The notes under the pieces: model-generated | What the model saw: only the letters and a program-made list of their open reading frames with translations | Told to the model about the DNA's origin: nothing | Databases searched by the model: none | NCBI RefSeq assembly: GCF_030294985.1 | Contig: NZ_AP024718.1 | Location: 1,317,001-1,381,000, forward strand | Length of the DNA stretch: 64,000 nt | Direction of reading: 5' to 3' | From: Methylomarinovum tepidoasis | Lineage (GTDB): Bacteria > Pseudomonadota > Gammaproteobacteria > Methylococcales > Methylothermaceae | Shown here: one piece after another, positions 21,805 to 36,040 of the stretch | How positions within the stretch are numbered: position 1 is the stretch's first letter | How the letters are laid out: the number at the start of each line of letters is the position of its first letter | Position numbers and translations under genes: made by a program

Positions 21805-22804
21805 GCTTGTCTCTCCAAACGAATGGCCAGCACCGGGGCGTAGCCCTGGTGGACGGTTTGCGGGATGGCCTTGGACAGGCCGCCGTCGCCGCCCAGTCCC
21901 CGGCCGGTGAAGCACCTTCCGGAATCGAAATGGAGCGGGGTGAGGACGGCGCCGGTGTCGGCCAAAAGCACCGGGGTCTTGAACGGGCGGCCGCTGTGGA
22001 CGGCCGCATCGCCGTGGCGGCCGAAGCGGGTGAATGGCTGATACCAGCAGCCGGATGGGTTCCATTCCAACCCCTGAGGCGCGCAGGGGGCCAGGGTGAG
22101 CCAGGCGTTGGCATGTTCCTGGGCCGGCCAGGGGCTGCCGTCCACGGCATCCACCTCGAATTTTCCCAGGCCGATGCTGGCGTCGCGGCCGAAACCGGTC
22201 TGGCCGATGTCCCGCAGCAGCGTCGTGAGATCGTCCACCGCGATACGGCCAGGATCGTGGGCCAGATAGACCGCCAGCTTCATCCCCCGGCAGTGCCAGT
22301 ACTGGGTCATGGCGTAGGGGGCGAATTCCCCGCTGGCGGTGGTGCCGGTCAGGCGGTGGATGGTGTTGTGGGGCTGGGCGCGGGTGGCGATGAGATCCGA
22401 GCCGCCGTCAGCGGGTGACCTGGTCGTCCGGCGCCGGCAAGCCTCCGCGGCGAAGTGCTCCACCAGTTCCCGGTCGCTTTTGGCCAGGGCAAGCCAGTCG
22501 GCGACGGGCCGCCCGAAATCCGCGCCGGCGATCCAGCGGTTTTTTTTGACCTGCTTGCGCTCGGCGGCGTCCACCTCGCCGAAATGGTGCAGGGGAAGTG
22601 CCGGCCGGGGCAGGAAGCCGGCGGGGAAGGCGTCGGAAACCACTGCGAAGGGACGGCCTTCGGTATAACCTTCGAGCAGCTCGGTCACCGCGCCTGACCG
22701 AAACGGTTCCGCACCGCCCAGCACAATTGCCCGAAGAGGGTGTCGCCCTTGAGGGGGGTGCCGAAGGGGGACAGGGGGGTGAGGGTGAGTTTGATGGTGT
22801 TCAT
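21801..22804 (-). pseudogene. csm4: Type III-A effector subunit Csm4, apparent one-base frameshift
   Basis: Csm4 binds the crRNA 5' handle and bridges Cas10 to the backbone. Translation from ATG 22804 gives MNTIKLTLTPLSPFGTPLKG and DTLFGQLCWAVRNRFGQAR, the expected Csm4 N-terminus, then a TGA at 22685-22687. One frame over it continues TELLEGYTEGRPFAVVSDAF and runs to 21801. Adding one base near 22688 would join the two as ...ARLTELLEGY. A GTG at 22724 could start the second part alone but would lose the first strand and glycine-rich loop. Either a real inactivating deletion, ribosomal or polymerase slippage, or a sequence error. It overlaps the PIN gene and csm5 by ATGA at both ends. Confidence 0.8.
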
Positions 22805-23193
22805 GCAGCGACCCTCGCTAGAGTCAACCCAGCAATATAATGAAAATCACGCCGGTTTCGGGTAGCAAGCATCGCCTGATGAATCAACGCAGTGGCGGCG
22901 ATCAATGCGTCCGCGATCAACAGGCCGTGACTCAATCGGTATTGCCGGATCAGGTCAACGGCCTTCGTGGAAACGGGTTCAGTAACGGGCAATCGATAAA
23001 ATCGCCGCAGACAATGCTCGATGGCTTGCAAGTCCTGCTTGTTGCGTGCGCCGACCATCATTTCCATCCAGGTGATGTCGCTGACCATTACAAGATCGTT
23101 TTTCTCCCAGGCAGCCAATTGTTCAGCAACCGCCTCATTCCCGCGGGAAAATTCGATCAGCACATCGGTATCCAGCAGAATGCGGTCGTTCAC
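22801..23193 (-). CDS. PIN domain (VapC-like) toxin inside the csm operon
   Basis: A 130-residue PIN-fold nuclease. MNDRILLDTDVLIEFSRGN gives the first acidic cluster, ITWMEMMVGARNK the second, and GLLIADALIAATALIHQAMLATRNRRDF the third, the usual four-acid site for Mg-dependent RNA cleavage. The GTG start at 23193 overlaps the upstream antitoxin stop (GTGA), and its own stop overlaps the csm4 start (ATGA). It is therefore translationally coupled between a toxin partner and a Csm subunit. Confidence 0.87.
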   Translation of the reverse strand: MNDRILLDTDVLIEFSRGNEAVAEQLAAWEKNDLVMVSDITWMEMMVGARNKQDLQAIEHCLRRFYRLPVTEPVSTKAVDLIRQYRLSHGLLIADALIAATALIHQAMLATRNRRDFHYIAGLTLARVAA

Positions 23194-23423
23194 GTTTCAG
23201 GTCCCCATTCCTTTTCGCGCAGTCGCCGGACGTATTCCACACTGTCCTTCATGTCTTCGCGCGCCTTCCAGAGACCAAAGAGCGCTTCATTGACCAAGGG
23301 GGTGGAAGGCGGTGGCCGGTGCGCCTGTTTTTTACTCAAAAATTCCACGAAGTCGGCCACCTCCTCTTGCTTGTCGGGAGGCAATTGAGCGATCAGTTCG
23401 ATGATTTTCTCCAGTTCCCTCAT
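23190..23423 (-). CDS. DUF2281-like antitoxin
   Basis: A 77-residue protein beginning MRELEKIIELIAQLPPDKQE and continuing EVADFVEFLSKKQ, which resembles the DUF2281 family of small antitoxins; the tail EDMKDSVEYVRRLREKEW is probably the toxin-binding part. It stands directly before the PIN gene with a GTGA overlap and 11 bp after the csm3 stop. Antitoxin identity rests on the pairing and the N-terminal motif. The much longer open frame through this region belongs to a shadow of csm3. Confidence 0.75.
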   Translation of the reverse strand: MRELEKIIELIAQLPPDKQEEVADFVEFLSKKQAHRPPPSTPLVNEALFGLWKAREDMKDSVEYVRRLREKEWGPET

Positions 23424-23434
23424 GATTTGTTTCC

Positions 23435-24151
23435 TCACAGCTGGATGTCGTTCAAGCGGTCCTGGATCGGTTGGCCGTCCAGATGCAGATCCCTGAAGGC
23501 GATCTTGCCGTAACCGCGCGAGACCGACCCGCCCAGCCCCGAAAGCTCCACCAGCTTGAGGCCGCGCAGCACCGGCGGCAAAAGGTCCTCGCCGTCGATC
23601 ACCTTGAGGGTGAGGCGGAAATTGAACCGGGCCCCGGCCGGCACCCGCTCGGTGTTGCGGGGATGTTCGGCCACGCCGCGGATACGGTCGATCATGTTCT
23701 CCATCTTGGTTTCGGTCAAAAGCAGGTTCTTTTCCTGCATCTCCTCGACCCAGGCCGGATCGAGCCCGCAGTCCCAGAACGACAGGCGGGTGGGGCCGAT
23801 TTCGGTGACCAGCGCCTCCATGTCGCGGTCCATGCCGCCGCCGGTAGGTGCATAGCCGAACAGCTTGAGAATGGTCAGGCCGGCCTCGCGGTTGCCATCG
23901 AGCTGGTCGAGATGCTGGATTCCGAGCGGCTTGCCCCGGGCCACTGCCACCACCCCGGCGTGCCATTCCATCAGACTGCGCATCTTGCCCTTGAGGCTGG
24001 AGCCGGGAATGTAGGGCTGACCGGTGACCGGGTTCTTGATCACCGGGCTGTCGGTGCCGCCGATGTGCATCTCGGCGTTGCCGGAGCCGATGTGCAGGCC
24101 GGTGACCAATTCGATGGTGCCTTCGAGATTGGCGATTTTGTCGAGCTTCAT
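23435..24151 (-). CDS. csm3: Type III-A effector subunit Csm3 (target-RNA endonuclease)
   Basis: A 238-residue RAMP backbone protein. GLHIGSGNAEMHIGGTDSPV holds the catalytic aspartate (D34, in GGTDSP) that cuts target RNA at 6-nt intervals in studied Csm complexes. The crRNA-binding motif PYIPGSSLKGKMRSLMEW and the G-rich SGLGGSVSRGYGKI are present. Length is normal. It is separated from csm2 by about 380 bp of structured sequence (see 24205-24532), unlike the tight spacing elsewhere in the operon. Confidence 0.95.
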   Translation of the reverse strand: MKLDKIANLEGTIELVTGLHIGSGNAEMHIGGTDSPVIKNPVTGQPYIPGSSLKGKMRSLMEWHAGVVAVARGKPLGIQHLDQLDGNREAGLTILKLFGYAPTGGGMDRDMEALVTEIGPTRLSFWDCGLDPAWVEEMQEKNLLLTETKMENMIDRIRGVAEHPRNTERVPAGARFNFRLTLKVIDGEDLLPPVLRGLKLVELSGLGGSVSRGYGKIAFRDLHLDGQPIQDRLNDIQL

Positions 24152-24204
24152 CTATTTCCCGCGCAGGTTTCCCCCGCCGAAAGGCGAAGGAGGAAAGCGC
24201 GGCC

Positions 24205-24532
24205 TCCTTCAAGTTGTTAAACACGAAACAGGTGCCGGGCTTTTCACCCGGCCGGGCCTTGCGGCTCTGCCCTTACGGGCCTGGTAACGCACCCATTTCA
24301 GGGTGTCTCCCTTCGGGAATGTTGCAAGCCGGCCGTCTGTCCCGATCCATTTCGTGGGTACCCGGCCCTTGTCTGCAACCGGGACTTCCAGAGCCTGGGA
24401 CTGAGGAAGCATCCCAGGGTGGGTCTTTTGGCCTTACCTGCAACGTAGCGGGTTGGTTACCGCTTTCCCTGTTCAACCCCGGGCTTGCAGGTTTCCCCGC
24501 AAGCCCCTCCCTTCAGGGAGGGGTGGTTGACG
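24205..24532 (-). ncRNA. HEARO / IscB-type omega RNA, without an iscB gene
   Basis: This fills the gap of about 380 bp between csm2 and csm3. Read on the minus strand it begins right after the csm2 stop with GTCAACC and a perfect CCCCTCCC-TGAA-GGGAGGGG hairpin, then a GAAA-capped stem (CTTGCGG...CTGCAAG). Next come GTAAGGCC-AAAAGACC and CACCCTGGGAT...CAGTCCC, which match, from memory, the conserved core of HEARO RNAs such as the OgeuIscB omega RNA. More stems follow. No protein frame is convincing. IscB normally follows its RNA directly; here csm3 does. The exact ends are not known. The region down to 24152 holds one more hairpin (GAAGGAGG/CCTCCTTC) and the csm3 upstream region. Confidence 0.6.
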
Positions 24533-24967
24533 TCAGTCTCCTTTCTCCAGCTTGTAGAAGCCCAGGAAGGCTTCGAGAAACAGTTTGGCGATGCGCAGGT
24601 CGTCGGCGGTCCGGACGAAGTCGATGGTCTGGTCAAGCAGATCGACGAAGCGACCGTCCACCAGCTTGCGCCCCTGGGCGTAGGCGGCCTTGGCTTTGAG
24701 CATGCGGATAAAGGGCAGGTAATCTTCGAACTTGTCCCGGTTCTGGGTCGTCTTCTCCTCCCACATCACCAGCTCGTCATAGAAGCGGCGCAGCTGGGTG
24801 GACTTGTTCACTTCCTTTTTACAGTCAGCCACGGTTTCGGCGGCTTTATGGGCGGTCTTGTCAAACAGCTCCGGGTGGATTTTGCCGTCTTCGGTGCGGA
24901 ATTGGACGGTGAATCCCAAGGTGCGGTCCTCCCTGCGGTGCGAGGATTTTCGTTGTTGATGGTTCAT
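24533..24967 (-). CDS. csm2: Type III-A effector subunit Csm2
   Basis: A 144-residue helical small subunit that lines the target-RNA channel of the Csm complex. The TIGR01870-type marks are KEVNKSTQLRRFYDELVMW and LPFIRMLKAKAAYAQGRKLV, with the closing LRIAKLFLEAFLGFYKL helix. The start MNHQQRKSS at 24967 lies 11 bases after the cas10 stop. The stop TGA abuts the predicted omega RNA element, so that element inserted immediately downstream without truncating the protein. Confidence 0.92.
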   Translation of the reverse strand: MNHQQRKSSHRREDRTLGFTVQFRTEDGKIHPELFDKTAHKAAETVADCKKEVNKSTQLRRFYDELVMWEEKTTQNRDKFEDYLPFIRMLKAKAAYAQGRKLVDGRFVDLLDQTIDFVRTADDLRIAKLFLEAFLGFYKLEKGD

Positions 24968-24978
24968 GGCATGGCTCC

Positions 24979-27624
24979 TCAGTGACGCTGCTGATACAGA
25001 TGGATGAACAGGGGAATGACGAAGCGGCTGCCGAAGCGCTCGATGGGCTCTCCCAGGACTTTCCAAAGCTCGGCCATCCGGCGGCGGCGTTCCTGGTCAC
25101 TCAACCCGCGCATCCGCTCCAGCATCCTGAAGGTGCGGTAGCTGAACCAGGATTTCCAGATGGCGTTCTCGGGCCGCTCGTGCACGTTTCCAGCCAGGTG
25201 AGCCAGTTCCTGGAGGCGGTACAGATAGGCGGTGCTGAGGTCGAGATCGCAGTGTTCGATCCCTTCCTTGACCTGCCACAGCTGTTCGAACTCGTCCCAG
25301 GAGACGCTCTGGTGGAACAGGGTGACGGCGTTCTTTCCCGGAAGGGCCTTGGCGTCTTCCAGGGCGTCTTCGGCCGTCTTTCCCAGTTGCCGCACCGGCT
25401 GGCCGGGTTTGGTCATGGACAGCCCGGCGGAAAAATGCAGCCCGGGATTTTTCGCCACGTAACGATGGAAGCGGTCGCGCATGTCGCGGGCCAGGCGGAT
25501 GGTGCTGTACCACGGGCCGATGAGGAAAAAGTCGTCGCCGCCGGCGAATACGGTGTAGGTGTCTCGATAGTGTTCCCGGCAGTACCAGGGCAGCCATACG
25601 GCGAAAAAGGCGTTCATCTGCCGCGACAGGCTGGCCCATTTGGCAAAGCTCGGCTGTTCCAGGCCCTTCTGGAAGATCAGTCCCAGATTGTCCACGTCCC
25701 CCTTGAGCACCGTCAGCGCCTCGGTGCCGACCCAGCCGTCGCCTTCCGGGCGCAGGTCGTCGCGGGCCAGGTGCTCAAAGGTCTTGGGGGCCCTGGGGTC
25801 CCAGTCTCCAGGGAGCTCGATGTCCCGGTAGCGGTCACGGTCGTACTGGTTCAAATCGCCGAGCAGGGGGACATAGGCGTTGATGAAACGGCGGGCGTAA
25901 CCGGAAAACAGCGGTGTCCGTTTGCCCTGCGGCAGGCTGAAATCCCAGGCCCGCCGCAGCGCCCCCTCCCTCACCAGGGGGCCGAACCTGCCGCTGGCCT
26001 CCTCGGGACCGGTGAAGCTGATGTGGTAACCGAACAAGTCGAGCCGCAGGGTATGGTGATCGATGGCGCGGGTCGTCACCAGCAGGCGGTCGTGGTGGGC
26101 CAGCCATTTGCCGGTATCGATCTGGTCGGCGGCCAGGGGGCTGATGTACCGGTTTTCGGCGCCTTCCAGCTTTTCGCTGGCCGGCGAGCGGCCGTCGATG
26201 GCGCAGACGCCCTTTTCGTTGTCGAAGGCATCAAGAAAACCCTTGAACACCGCTTCCGGCGCCTGCGGGGCGCACAGGTTCAGACGCTGGGACTTTTTGT
26301 CCTCCAGGCGATCGAACAGGCGCTTTAAGAGCCTTGCGAACGGGCGCTCCGTCTCGCCGCGGCGGTGGAGGAAATCGTTGCAGCAGGCCGCCTGCCAGGC
26401 GATGCCGATGCCGGAGGCGGCGTAGGTCCGCTCCAGGAACCAGCGGTCGAATTGCCGCTGGATGGCCGCCAGCCGCCGGCGCACCGCCTCGGTGTTGGGG
26501 GCGACGATGAGGAATTTGCCGGCGGCGTTTATCACCTGACTGGTGGGCGGCAGGCCCAATTCTTCGAGAATCCTTAAGGCGGCGCATTCGCACAGCAGGG
26601 AAACGTAGAAGGAACGCCCCCGCAGCAATTTGGCCGCCTGGCGCTGGGTTTCGCCGCCGCTGGTGAAGATGAAGTCCTGGATGCCGTAGAAATCGCCGAG
26701 CACCAGCAGGAACTTGTTCTCGTCCCAGTCGCTGCGGGTGCGCATCGCTTCCGCTGCGGCCTTCGGGTCGTCGCCGCGGTCGTCGTGCCAGCGCCACAGC
26801 GCCGTGGCCAGGGCCGAGGCGGTGCGGGAATGGTCGTAGAGGGACACCTCCGGGCGCACCTTGCCGGCGGTGGCGGCGGGAACGGCATGGGCGAAGGCGG
26901 CCCACAGGGAATCGAAATGGTCCAGCCACAGGGCCCAGTCGTCTCGGTGGCTGGCCGGAATCTCCTTCAGGGCCCGGCGGAAGCCGTCCCACAGGCGGCG
27001 GTATTCCGCCTGGGCGGCCTGGCGGTCGTTGCCTTCGCAGGCGTCCGCCGGCTGGGGGAACAGGGCCGCGACGCTCAGGGGCTCGAGGGGATAACGCCAG
27101 CGGAAATCGGCCCGGTTCCGAGGGGCCTCGCCGTCCAGGCGGATCTGCTCGAACAGGGTCAGAAGGCGGGCGGTGTAGTGGTCGCGGCCGGTGCTGGCGC
27201 CTTCCTCGGCCTGGTTGTAACGGTCGAATTCCTCCCGTTCGAAACCGGAGGCCACCCGGTCGGCGGTGGCGACGATCCATTGCAGGAAGGTTTGCGGTTT
27301 GTGATGCATCGCCGCGGCGTTGATGAGGGAATCGTCCACGTTCCTTTCCCCCCAGGCGGCGAAGGGAGAGACGTCGCGCCCTTTGAGCGGTGGCAGATCG
27401 TCCTCGATCAAATCCAGGGCGATGGCCGTATAGGCGGCGTGGACGTGGGACCAGCGCCCGTTCCAGCCCGGGCAGTACTGCTGCTTGTTGCGATCGGCTA
27501 CCGAGTTTCCCTCGGCGTCTTTGGCCTCGGCCTCCCCGATCCGCGCCCGCTCGGCCAGTTTGCCCAGGTCGTGGACGTAGGCGGCAAAGGCCACCCGGCA
27601 GCTTGGTTCCAGCTTGGTTTTCAT
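24979..27624 (-). CDS. csm1: Type III-A Cas10/Csm1, HD nuclease and cyclic oligoadenylate synthase
   Basis: An 881-residue large subunit. The HD nuclease motif is AYVHDLGKLAE (H18, D19), with HHKPQTF as a further metal site. Two GGDEF-like palm domains follow; the second has the active VFAGGDDFFLIGPW (GGDD at about 695-698) and its partner LKGDVDNLGLIF. Cas10 with intact HD and GGDD is expected to cut ssDNA and to make cyclic oligoadenylates when target RNA binds. It heads the leftward csm operon, divergent from a toxin-antitoxin pair, so its promoter lies in 27625-27738. Confidence 0.96.
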   Translation of the reverse strand: MKTKLEPSCRVAFAAYVHDLGKLAERARIGEAEAKDAEGNSVADRNKQQYCPGWNGRWSHVHAAYTAIALDLIEDDLPPLKGRDVSPFAAWGERNVDDSLINAAAMHHKPQTFLQWIVATADRVASGFEREEFDRYNQAEEGASTGRDHYTARLLTLFEQIRLDGEAPRNRADFRWRYPLEPLSVAALFPQPADACEGNDRQAAQAEYRRLWDGFRRALKEIPASHRDDWALWLDHFDSLWAAFAHAVPAATAGKVRPEVSLYDHSRTASALATALWRWHDDRGDDPKAAAEAMRTRSDWDENKFLLVLGDFYGIQDFIFTSGGETQRQAAKLLRGRSFYVSLLCECAALRILEELGLPPTSQVINAAGKFLIVAPNTEAVRRRLAAIQRQFDRWFLERTYAASGIGIAWQAACCNDFLHRRGETERPFARLLKRLFDRLEDKKSQRLNLCAPQAPEAVFKGFLDAFDNEKGVCAIDGRSPASEKLEGAENRYISPLAADQIDTGKWLAHHDRLLVTTRAIDHHTLRLDLFGYHISFTGPEEASGRFGPLVREGALRRAWDFSLPQGKRTPLFSGYARRFINAYVPLLGDLNQYDRDRYRDIELPGDWDPRAPKTFEHLARDDLRPEGDGWVGTEALTVLKGDVDNLGLIFQKGLEQPSFAKWASLSRQMNAFFAVWLPWYCREHYRDTYTVFAGGDDFFLIGPWYSTIRLARDMRDRFHRYVAKNPGLHFSAGLSMTKPGQPVRQLGKTAEDALEDAKALPGKNAVTLFHQSVSWDEFEQLWQVKEGIEHCDLDLSTAYLYRLQELAHLAGNVHERPENAIWKSWFSYRTFRMLERMRGLSDQERRRRMAELWKVLGEPIERFGSRFVIPLFIHLYQQRH

Positions 27625-35771: not shown

Positions 35772-36017
35772 GTCTAGAAAGCGACCTGTTTGAAAAGGGA
35801 TTAAGACTTCAGTTCTTCGGCAAACGTTATCAGCTCATTCGTCTAGAAAGCGACCTGTTTGAAAAGGGATTAAGACCCAGCACCAGCAAGTTCCTCAAGC
35901 GCCCCCGGGTGTCTAGAAAGCGACCTGTTTGAAAAGGGATTAAGACTCAAACCCGAAAAAGGTTCCGATGCGGCGACCATAGTCTAGAAAGCGACCTGTT
36001 TGAAAAGGGATTAAGAC
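35772..36017 (+). CRISPR. CRISPR array 2 (4 repeats, 3 spacers)
   Basis: Four identical 36-bp repeats at 35772-35807, 35841-35876, 35911-35946 and 35982-36017, starting GTCTAGAAAGCG and ending GGGATTAAGAC. Spacers are 33, 34 and 35 bp. After the last repeat come 23 bases without a further repeat and then the left flank of the TnpB element, so the distal end may have been cut. If Cas6 leaves an 8-nt handle as in other type III systems, it would be ATTAAGAC. Confidence 0.98.
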
Positions 36018-36040
36018 GACACGGTGGTGTCACTTTTCAC

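Follow-up and report, generated by a model that had tools for sequence, protein, structure and literature searches.

In the 64-kb window analysed here (the whole stretch of DNA under study), csm2 and csm3 lie on the minus strand downstream of csm1/cas10, which is on the minus strand as well, and they are separated by a gap that extends from the csm2 stop codon (24535-24533) to the csm3 ATG (24151-24149). A cmscan search of the window against all of Rfam gave the HEARO RNA (RF02033) as its sole match, and this match fell in the gap, where it scores 119.4 bits (E 4.4e-24) against a gathering cut-off of 83 bits and covers the model end to end (positions 1-211 of 211). The RNA starts 1 nt past the csm2 stop and shares the orientation of the csm genes, and inspection of the frames of the csm2-csm3 gap, including the sequence directly downstream of the RNA, found no iscB. 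Given that HEARO RNAs lacking iscB are already known, its absence here is compatible with this RNA family, and the RNA in the gap is a bona fide HEARO/IscB omega RNA without iscB. The original prediction had called it an orphan omega RNA, with a minus-strand HEARO core, no iscB frame, an orientation allowing transcription with the csm genes and the csm2 3' end in the guide position, all of which was borne out. It had also placed the RNA at 24205-24532, which is right as to location and slightly off as to extent: the recognised RNA is the 5' part of a longer element (Table 1).

Table 1. Features of the csm2-csm3 junction, in window coordinates
Feature	Position	Strand	Evidence
csm2, upstream gene (start codon uncertain)	24533-25066	-	TIGR01870, 59 bits
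Inferred 16-nt guide GAGAAAGGAGACTGAC	24532-24547	-	directly 5' of scaffold; length and position per PMC9640706
Whole non-autonomous element, 380 nt	24152-24531	-	same ends in the iscB element and all five iscB-less copies; relatives' csm2-csm3 junction empty
HEARO/omega RNA scaffold (5' 231 nt of element)	24301-24531	-	RF02033, 119.4 bits, full length
Hairpin GCCGGGTGAAAAGCCCGGCACCT after scaffold, iscB-less copies only	24230-24252	-	copy comparison
Right end, common to iscB element and two tnpB-type elements; holds the element's own weak ribosome-binding site	24152-24218	-	sequence comparison
ATGA at right flank, made up of the csm3 ATG and the next base; probable TAM/insertion motif	24148-24151	-	ATGA in 8 of 8 related elements of the genome
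csm3, downstream gene	23435-24151	-	TIGR02582, 208 bits

A search across both contigs of the genome (2.44 Mb) returned six HEARO copies, all above threshold, one belonging to a complete iscB element and five lacking iscB. A single protein of the same genome has the IscB domain RRXRR; it is 451 aa long, scores 462.9 bits against the guided_IscB equivalog (cut-off 175) and possesses an HNH domain, and its gene starts ~50 nt past the HEARO copy at C1:773185. The five iscB-less copies are 380-381 nt in length and 91.5-97.2% mutually identical, with common ends of GTCAACC on the left and GCGCGGGAAAYAG on the right (GTCAACC and GGGAAATAG at the csm site), and the right end recurs in the iscB element and in two tnpB-type elements. 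All five bear a post-scaffold segment that is absent from the iscB element. In that element the last iscB codons and the stop fall inside the transposon's shared right end (L009 4795-4851; C1:774792-774853). Two of the iscB-less elements lie ~1.1 kb apart (L010; C1:51319 and C1:52415), before narI and before the next gene, so that two genes in a row have an element at the start. The sole Y1 transposase found in the genome, of the IS200/IS605 family, is encoded on the 20.5-kb contig inside another element.

Similar elements occur outside this genome. A hairpin of the form GCCGGG..AAAG..CCGGC, usually followed by CCT, stands after the scaffold of iscB-less elements in several genera of the same class (including loci L145, L156, L136 and L146), and such a post-scaffold hairpin was present in 32 of 39 iscB-less copies, many of the 32 being sister copies within one genome, versus 0 of 10 iscB copies. 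A 20-mer of the hairpin, GCCGGGAAAGACCGGCNCCT, was found in 106 viral-contig stretches, in many cases close to tRNAs or to the starts of genes, and no HEARO core lay upstream of it in the 80 viral stretches inspected (L217-L296). A search of five of the loci matched it to no Rfam family. Phage records yielded no match when searched, and plasmid records yielded HEARO-like matches at ~68-80% identity, all four of those inspected (H1, H5, H8 and H9) adjoining iscB; a tandem-repeat scan found nothing. Three genomes from one other family of the class (G176, G291 and G388; for example L130-L214) contain 124, 69 and 37 HEARO matches, respectively. The 22 copies read in G291 are near-identical, with a length of ~378 nt and ATGA or GTGA as boundary, and are best interpreted as omega-RNA-only elements that multiplied in a very recent burst.

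The feature of this family that we find most interesting is its habit of sitting right before start codons. All six HEARO elements end directly before an ATGA that opens a same-sense gene, these genes being csm3, narI, gltX, pdxJ and an alginate-export-like outer-membrane gene for the iscB-less copies and accA for the complete iscB element (gene identities were assigned with family models and element boundaries from sequence). Two further elements with the same right end carry tnpB-like frames, recognised by eye only, on the opposite strand, and abut the ATGA with which aroB and a DUF423 gene begin (L035 and L036; G000 C1:529490 and C1:317507), bringing the ATGA right flank to eight of eight elements. 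The iscB/HEARO and tnpB-type elements appear, then, to use one insertion motif, read as TCAT or ATGA according to strand.

By a rough gene caller applied to DNA sampled from the same genome, gene starts account for 6.7% of all ATGA and for 38% of the ATGA at which insertion would disrupt no gene, and finding eight of eight elements at gene starts has a probability of ~4e-10 on the former basis or ~4e-4 on the latter. In the young G291 family, of 22 copies 4 are at called starts, 18 are intergenic and none is inside a gene, and the flank is ATGA in all except one, where it is GTGA. Given this distribution, active targeting of start codons is not needed, avoidance of gene disruption already explaining much. 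We consider that selection against disrupting genes, combined with a motif that happens to be a start codon, would explain much of the start-codon pattern.

Relatives that lack the element reveal what its target looked like. In the same genus, the csm2-csm3 junction of G008 reads CTGGAGAAGGGGGACTGAC up to the insertion point and ATGAAACTGG beyond it, that of G009 reads AAAAAGGAGACTGACCG and then ATGAAACTC, and the element is likewise absent from the junctions of G001 and G002. The csm element is thus found in one only of the csm-bearing relatives examined, four relatives with csm3 lacking it at the junction, and it does not show the conservation at csm2-csm3 across relatives that would mark a csm3 riboregulator. 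The original prediction would have been in difficulty had the HEARO match fallen below threshold or had these empty sites held an equally structured sequence; the match exceeds the threshold, the empty sites hold nothing comparable, and the prediction stands in both regards. For the pdxJ copy, the exact pre-insertion sequence is preserved in the sister species G003 (ACCATGGTGAAAAAGC followed by ATGAACC), from which it follows that insertion occurred without duplication or deletion of the target; the elements have defined ends, a fixed tetranucleotide flanking one side and no target-site duplication. The gltX insertion is common to G003, where its HEARO has decayed to a sub-threshold 70.9 bits, and G003 has a full iscB copy of its own at a different gene.

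In a structural study of one IscB, the 5' guide was ~16-17 nt long with a requirement for matching over the TAM-proximal 14 nt, and the characterised IscB had its NNRR TAM at the opposite side of the target (PMC9640706). The ATGA flank is consistent with such a TAM. At the csm site the putative guide (24547-24532, minus strand) would consist of the csm2 3' end together with what was once the Shine-Dalgarno sequence of csm3, followed at an empty site by ATGA, and the occupied site would be safe, given that the guide sequence there precedes GTCA rather than a TAM. Against actual empty sites, the guide of the pdxJ copy matched G003 at 16 of 16 positions, and the csm guide matched the G008 junction at 14 of 16. 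No match to guide plus TAM with up to 2 mismatches exists elsewhere in the genome, and on this ground we rejected off-target use of the guide within the element's own genome.

The scaffolds were also examined for signs of function. Their core contains a 64-nt run that is invariant across the five copies (P 0.009 given the same number of variable columns), and in an eight-copy alignment that includes G003, 5 of 74 predicted pairs have changed on both sides with pairing kept. The csm copy has a C-G to G-C swap of its own among these compensatory pairs, and one of its terminal scaffold pairs is broken. Among copies that are few and close, this pattern of constraint fits RNAs that are now or were recently functional, and the constraint on the core could stem from past mobility and not from present use.

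Taken together, we assign a probability of roughly 0.7 to the reading that the csm-gap element is a non-autonomous IS200/IS605-type IscB/HEARO element that would give IscB a trans guide against the element's own empty site. Under this reading the element would have entered the csm2-csm3 junction immediately 5' of the ATGA formed by the csm3 start codon and one further base, its mobility presumably supplied in trans by a Y1 transposase. Transcription of the csm genes through the element would produce an omega RNA guided by the 16 nt that directly precede the element. The one intact IscB would load this RNA and cut copies of the junction that have guide and ATGA and no element, and repair from a filled copy, as published work on IscB and TnpB would suggest, would keep or restore the element. 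The filled site would itself be protected, the element parting the guide match from the TAM. A trans-acting guide for an IscB elsewhere was among the roles originally proposed, and the one intact iscB in the genome makes that role plausible.

More tentatively, the single iscB locus might form a working trans system with the five iscB-less omega RNAs, in which one nuclease would be served by six guides, each directed at the region around the start codon of one host gene, with csm3 among these genes, as a homing drive acting on incoming or sister DNA without the element; a right end doubling as a ribosome-binding site would then let the family persist at the start codons of operons. We regard this broader scheme as possible, and as well short of probable.

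Its effect on the host operon would depend on how csm3 is now translated. Predicted pairing with the 16S tail is -8.7 kcal/mol for the native csm3 Shine-Dalgarno sequence and -4.3 kcal/mol for the element end, and given that the insertion parts the native sequence from the csm3 start, the element's own weaker ribosome-binding site takes over, such that csm3 translation may be lowered or uncoupled. Between csm3 and the next csm gene the window also encodes a DUF2281 protein and a PIN-domain protein (22801-23423, minus strand) that resemble an antitoxin-toxin pair; in G009 csm3 directly adjoins the next csm gene, and the operon therefore seems to have taken a second insertion. Beside the cas genes, four direct repeats of 36-39 nt at a spacing of 69-71 nt (35772-36020) form an apparent short CRISPR array with three spacers.

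Several other histories could leave an omega RNA at this site. The main rival to a trans guide is an inert relic, a transposed copy that is transcribed with csm, has fallen out of use by IscB and is decaying. Decay of this kind is visible in the gltX copy of G003, and the csm copy, with its broken end pair, is among the more divergent ones; on the other hand it retains its 119 bits, the invariant core and the compensatory swap, and the genome has an intact iscB, so that we hold the relic to be a genuine though distinctly lesser possibility. A different origin was assumed in the original prediction, namely that a complete iscB element had settled between csm2 and csm3 and later shed its nuclease gene. 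The csm copy does have the ends and scaffold of the complete iscB element, but the same iscB-less structure is present at five sites, near-identically and with a segment that the iscB element lacks, and similar elements are found in other genera. Given the common structure and the extra segment, one ready-made non-autonomous family is a better account than five separate losses of iscB, and the spread of such a family is likelier than loss of the nuclease at the csm site, which we disfavour and judge to be the least probable of the alternatives, and very unlikely.

Exaptation of the element to tune translation of csm3 and downstream genes had also been proposed, and could work through its RNA structure or its ribosome-binding site. 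What speaks for this is position alone, the element sitting exactly between the old Shine-Dalgarno sequence and the start codon, with the predicted weakening of pairing described above. However, the same element precedes the unrelated narI, gltX, pdxJ, accA and outer-membrane genes, which argues for a rule of insertion and not for a role in csm, and its presence in a single csm-bearing relative of those examined also speaks against an adopted regulator. We therefore consider exaptation improbable, if slightly less so than loss in place, and return to the non-autonomous element with a trans guide as the preferred reading.

What the present case adds is a single nuclease and six guides, together with defined empty sites, in a compact genome, and a probable TAM that coincides with a start codon inside a type III-A operon. 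With one IscB for six guides in 2.4 Mb, it offers a clear natural instance of omega RNAs that stand alone, with exact empty sites, and in which trans-loading is directly testable. The insertion motif ATGA doubles as a start codon, which would explain simply how such elements can settle in operons whose genes are tightly packed, and the csm copy poses the question of whether a type III CRISPR operon is altered by carrying a mobile guide element.

Insertion before ATGA or GTGA, HEARO RNAs without iscB and a retention role for TnpB/IscB guides have all been reported already; HEARO/IscB is a known system, and the csm-gap element is real but largely an ordinary non-autonomous transposon. It resembles the HEARO RNA (RF02033), the IscB omega RNA of IS200/IS605-type elements, in its full-length scaffold, in a guide position 5' of that scaffold and in insertion before ATGA, and differs in having an extra 3' hairpin segment in place of iscB. 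Like non-autonomous miniature IS200/IS605 derivatives it is short and multicopy, shares its ends with coding relatives (iscB and tnpB-type) and makes no target duplication, but it bears a structured guide RNA and not ends only. Stand-alone trans-acting omega RNAs were reportedly described by Altae-Tran and colleagues in 2021 in genomes with few IscB genes, such as that of Ktedonobacter racemifer. The present case likewise has several iscB-less loci beside an intact iscB, and differs in that its ends, its rule of insertion and its empty sites could all be defined, and in having one site within a type III-A operon. Finally, a 'gene drive' retention of insertion sequences has been described for TnpB (PMC11870625), and the csm element would share with TnpB/IscB drives a guide copied from the flank, a TAM that is the insertion motif and an empty site as target; in contrast to these, the nuclease here would act in trans.
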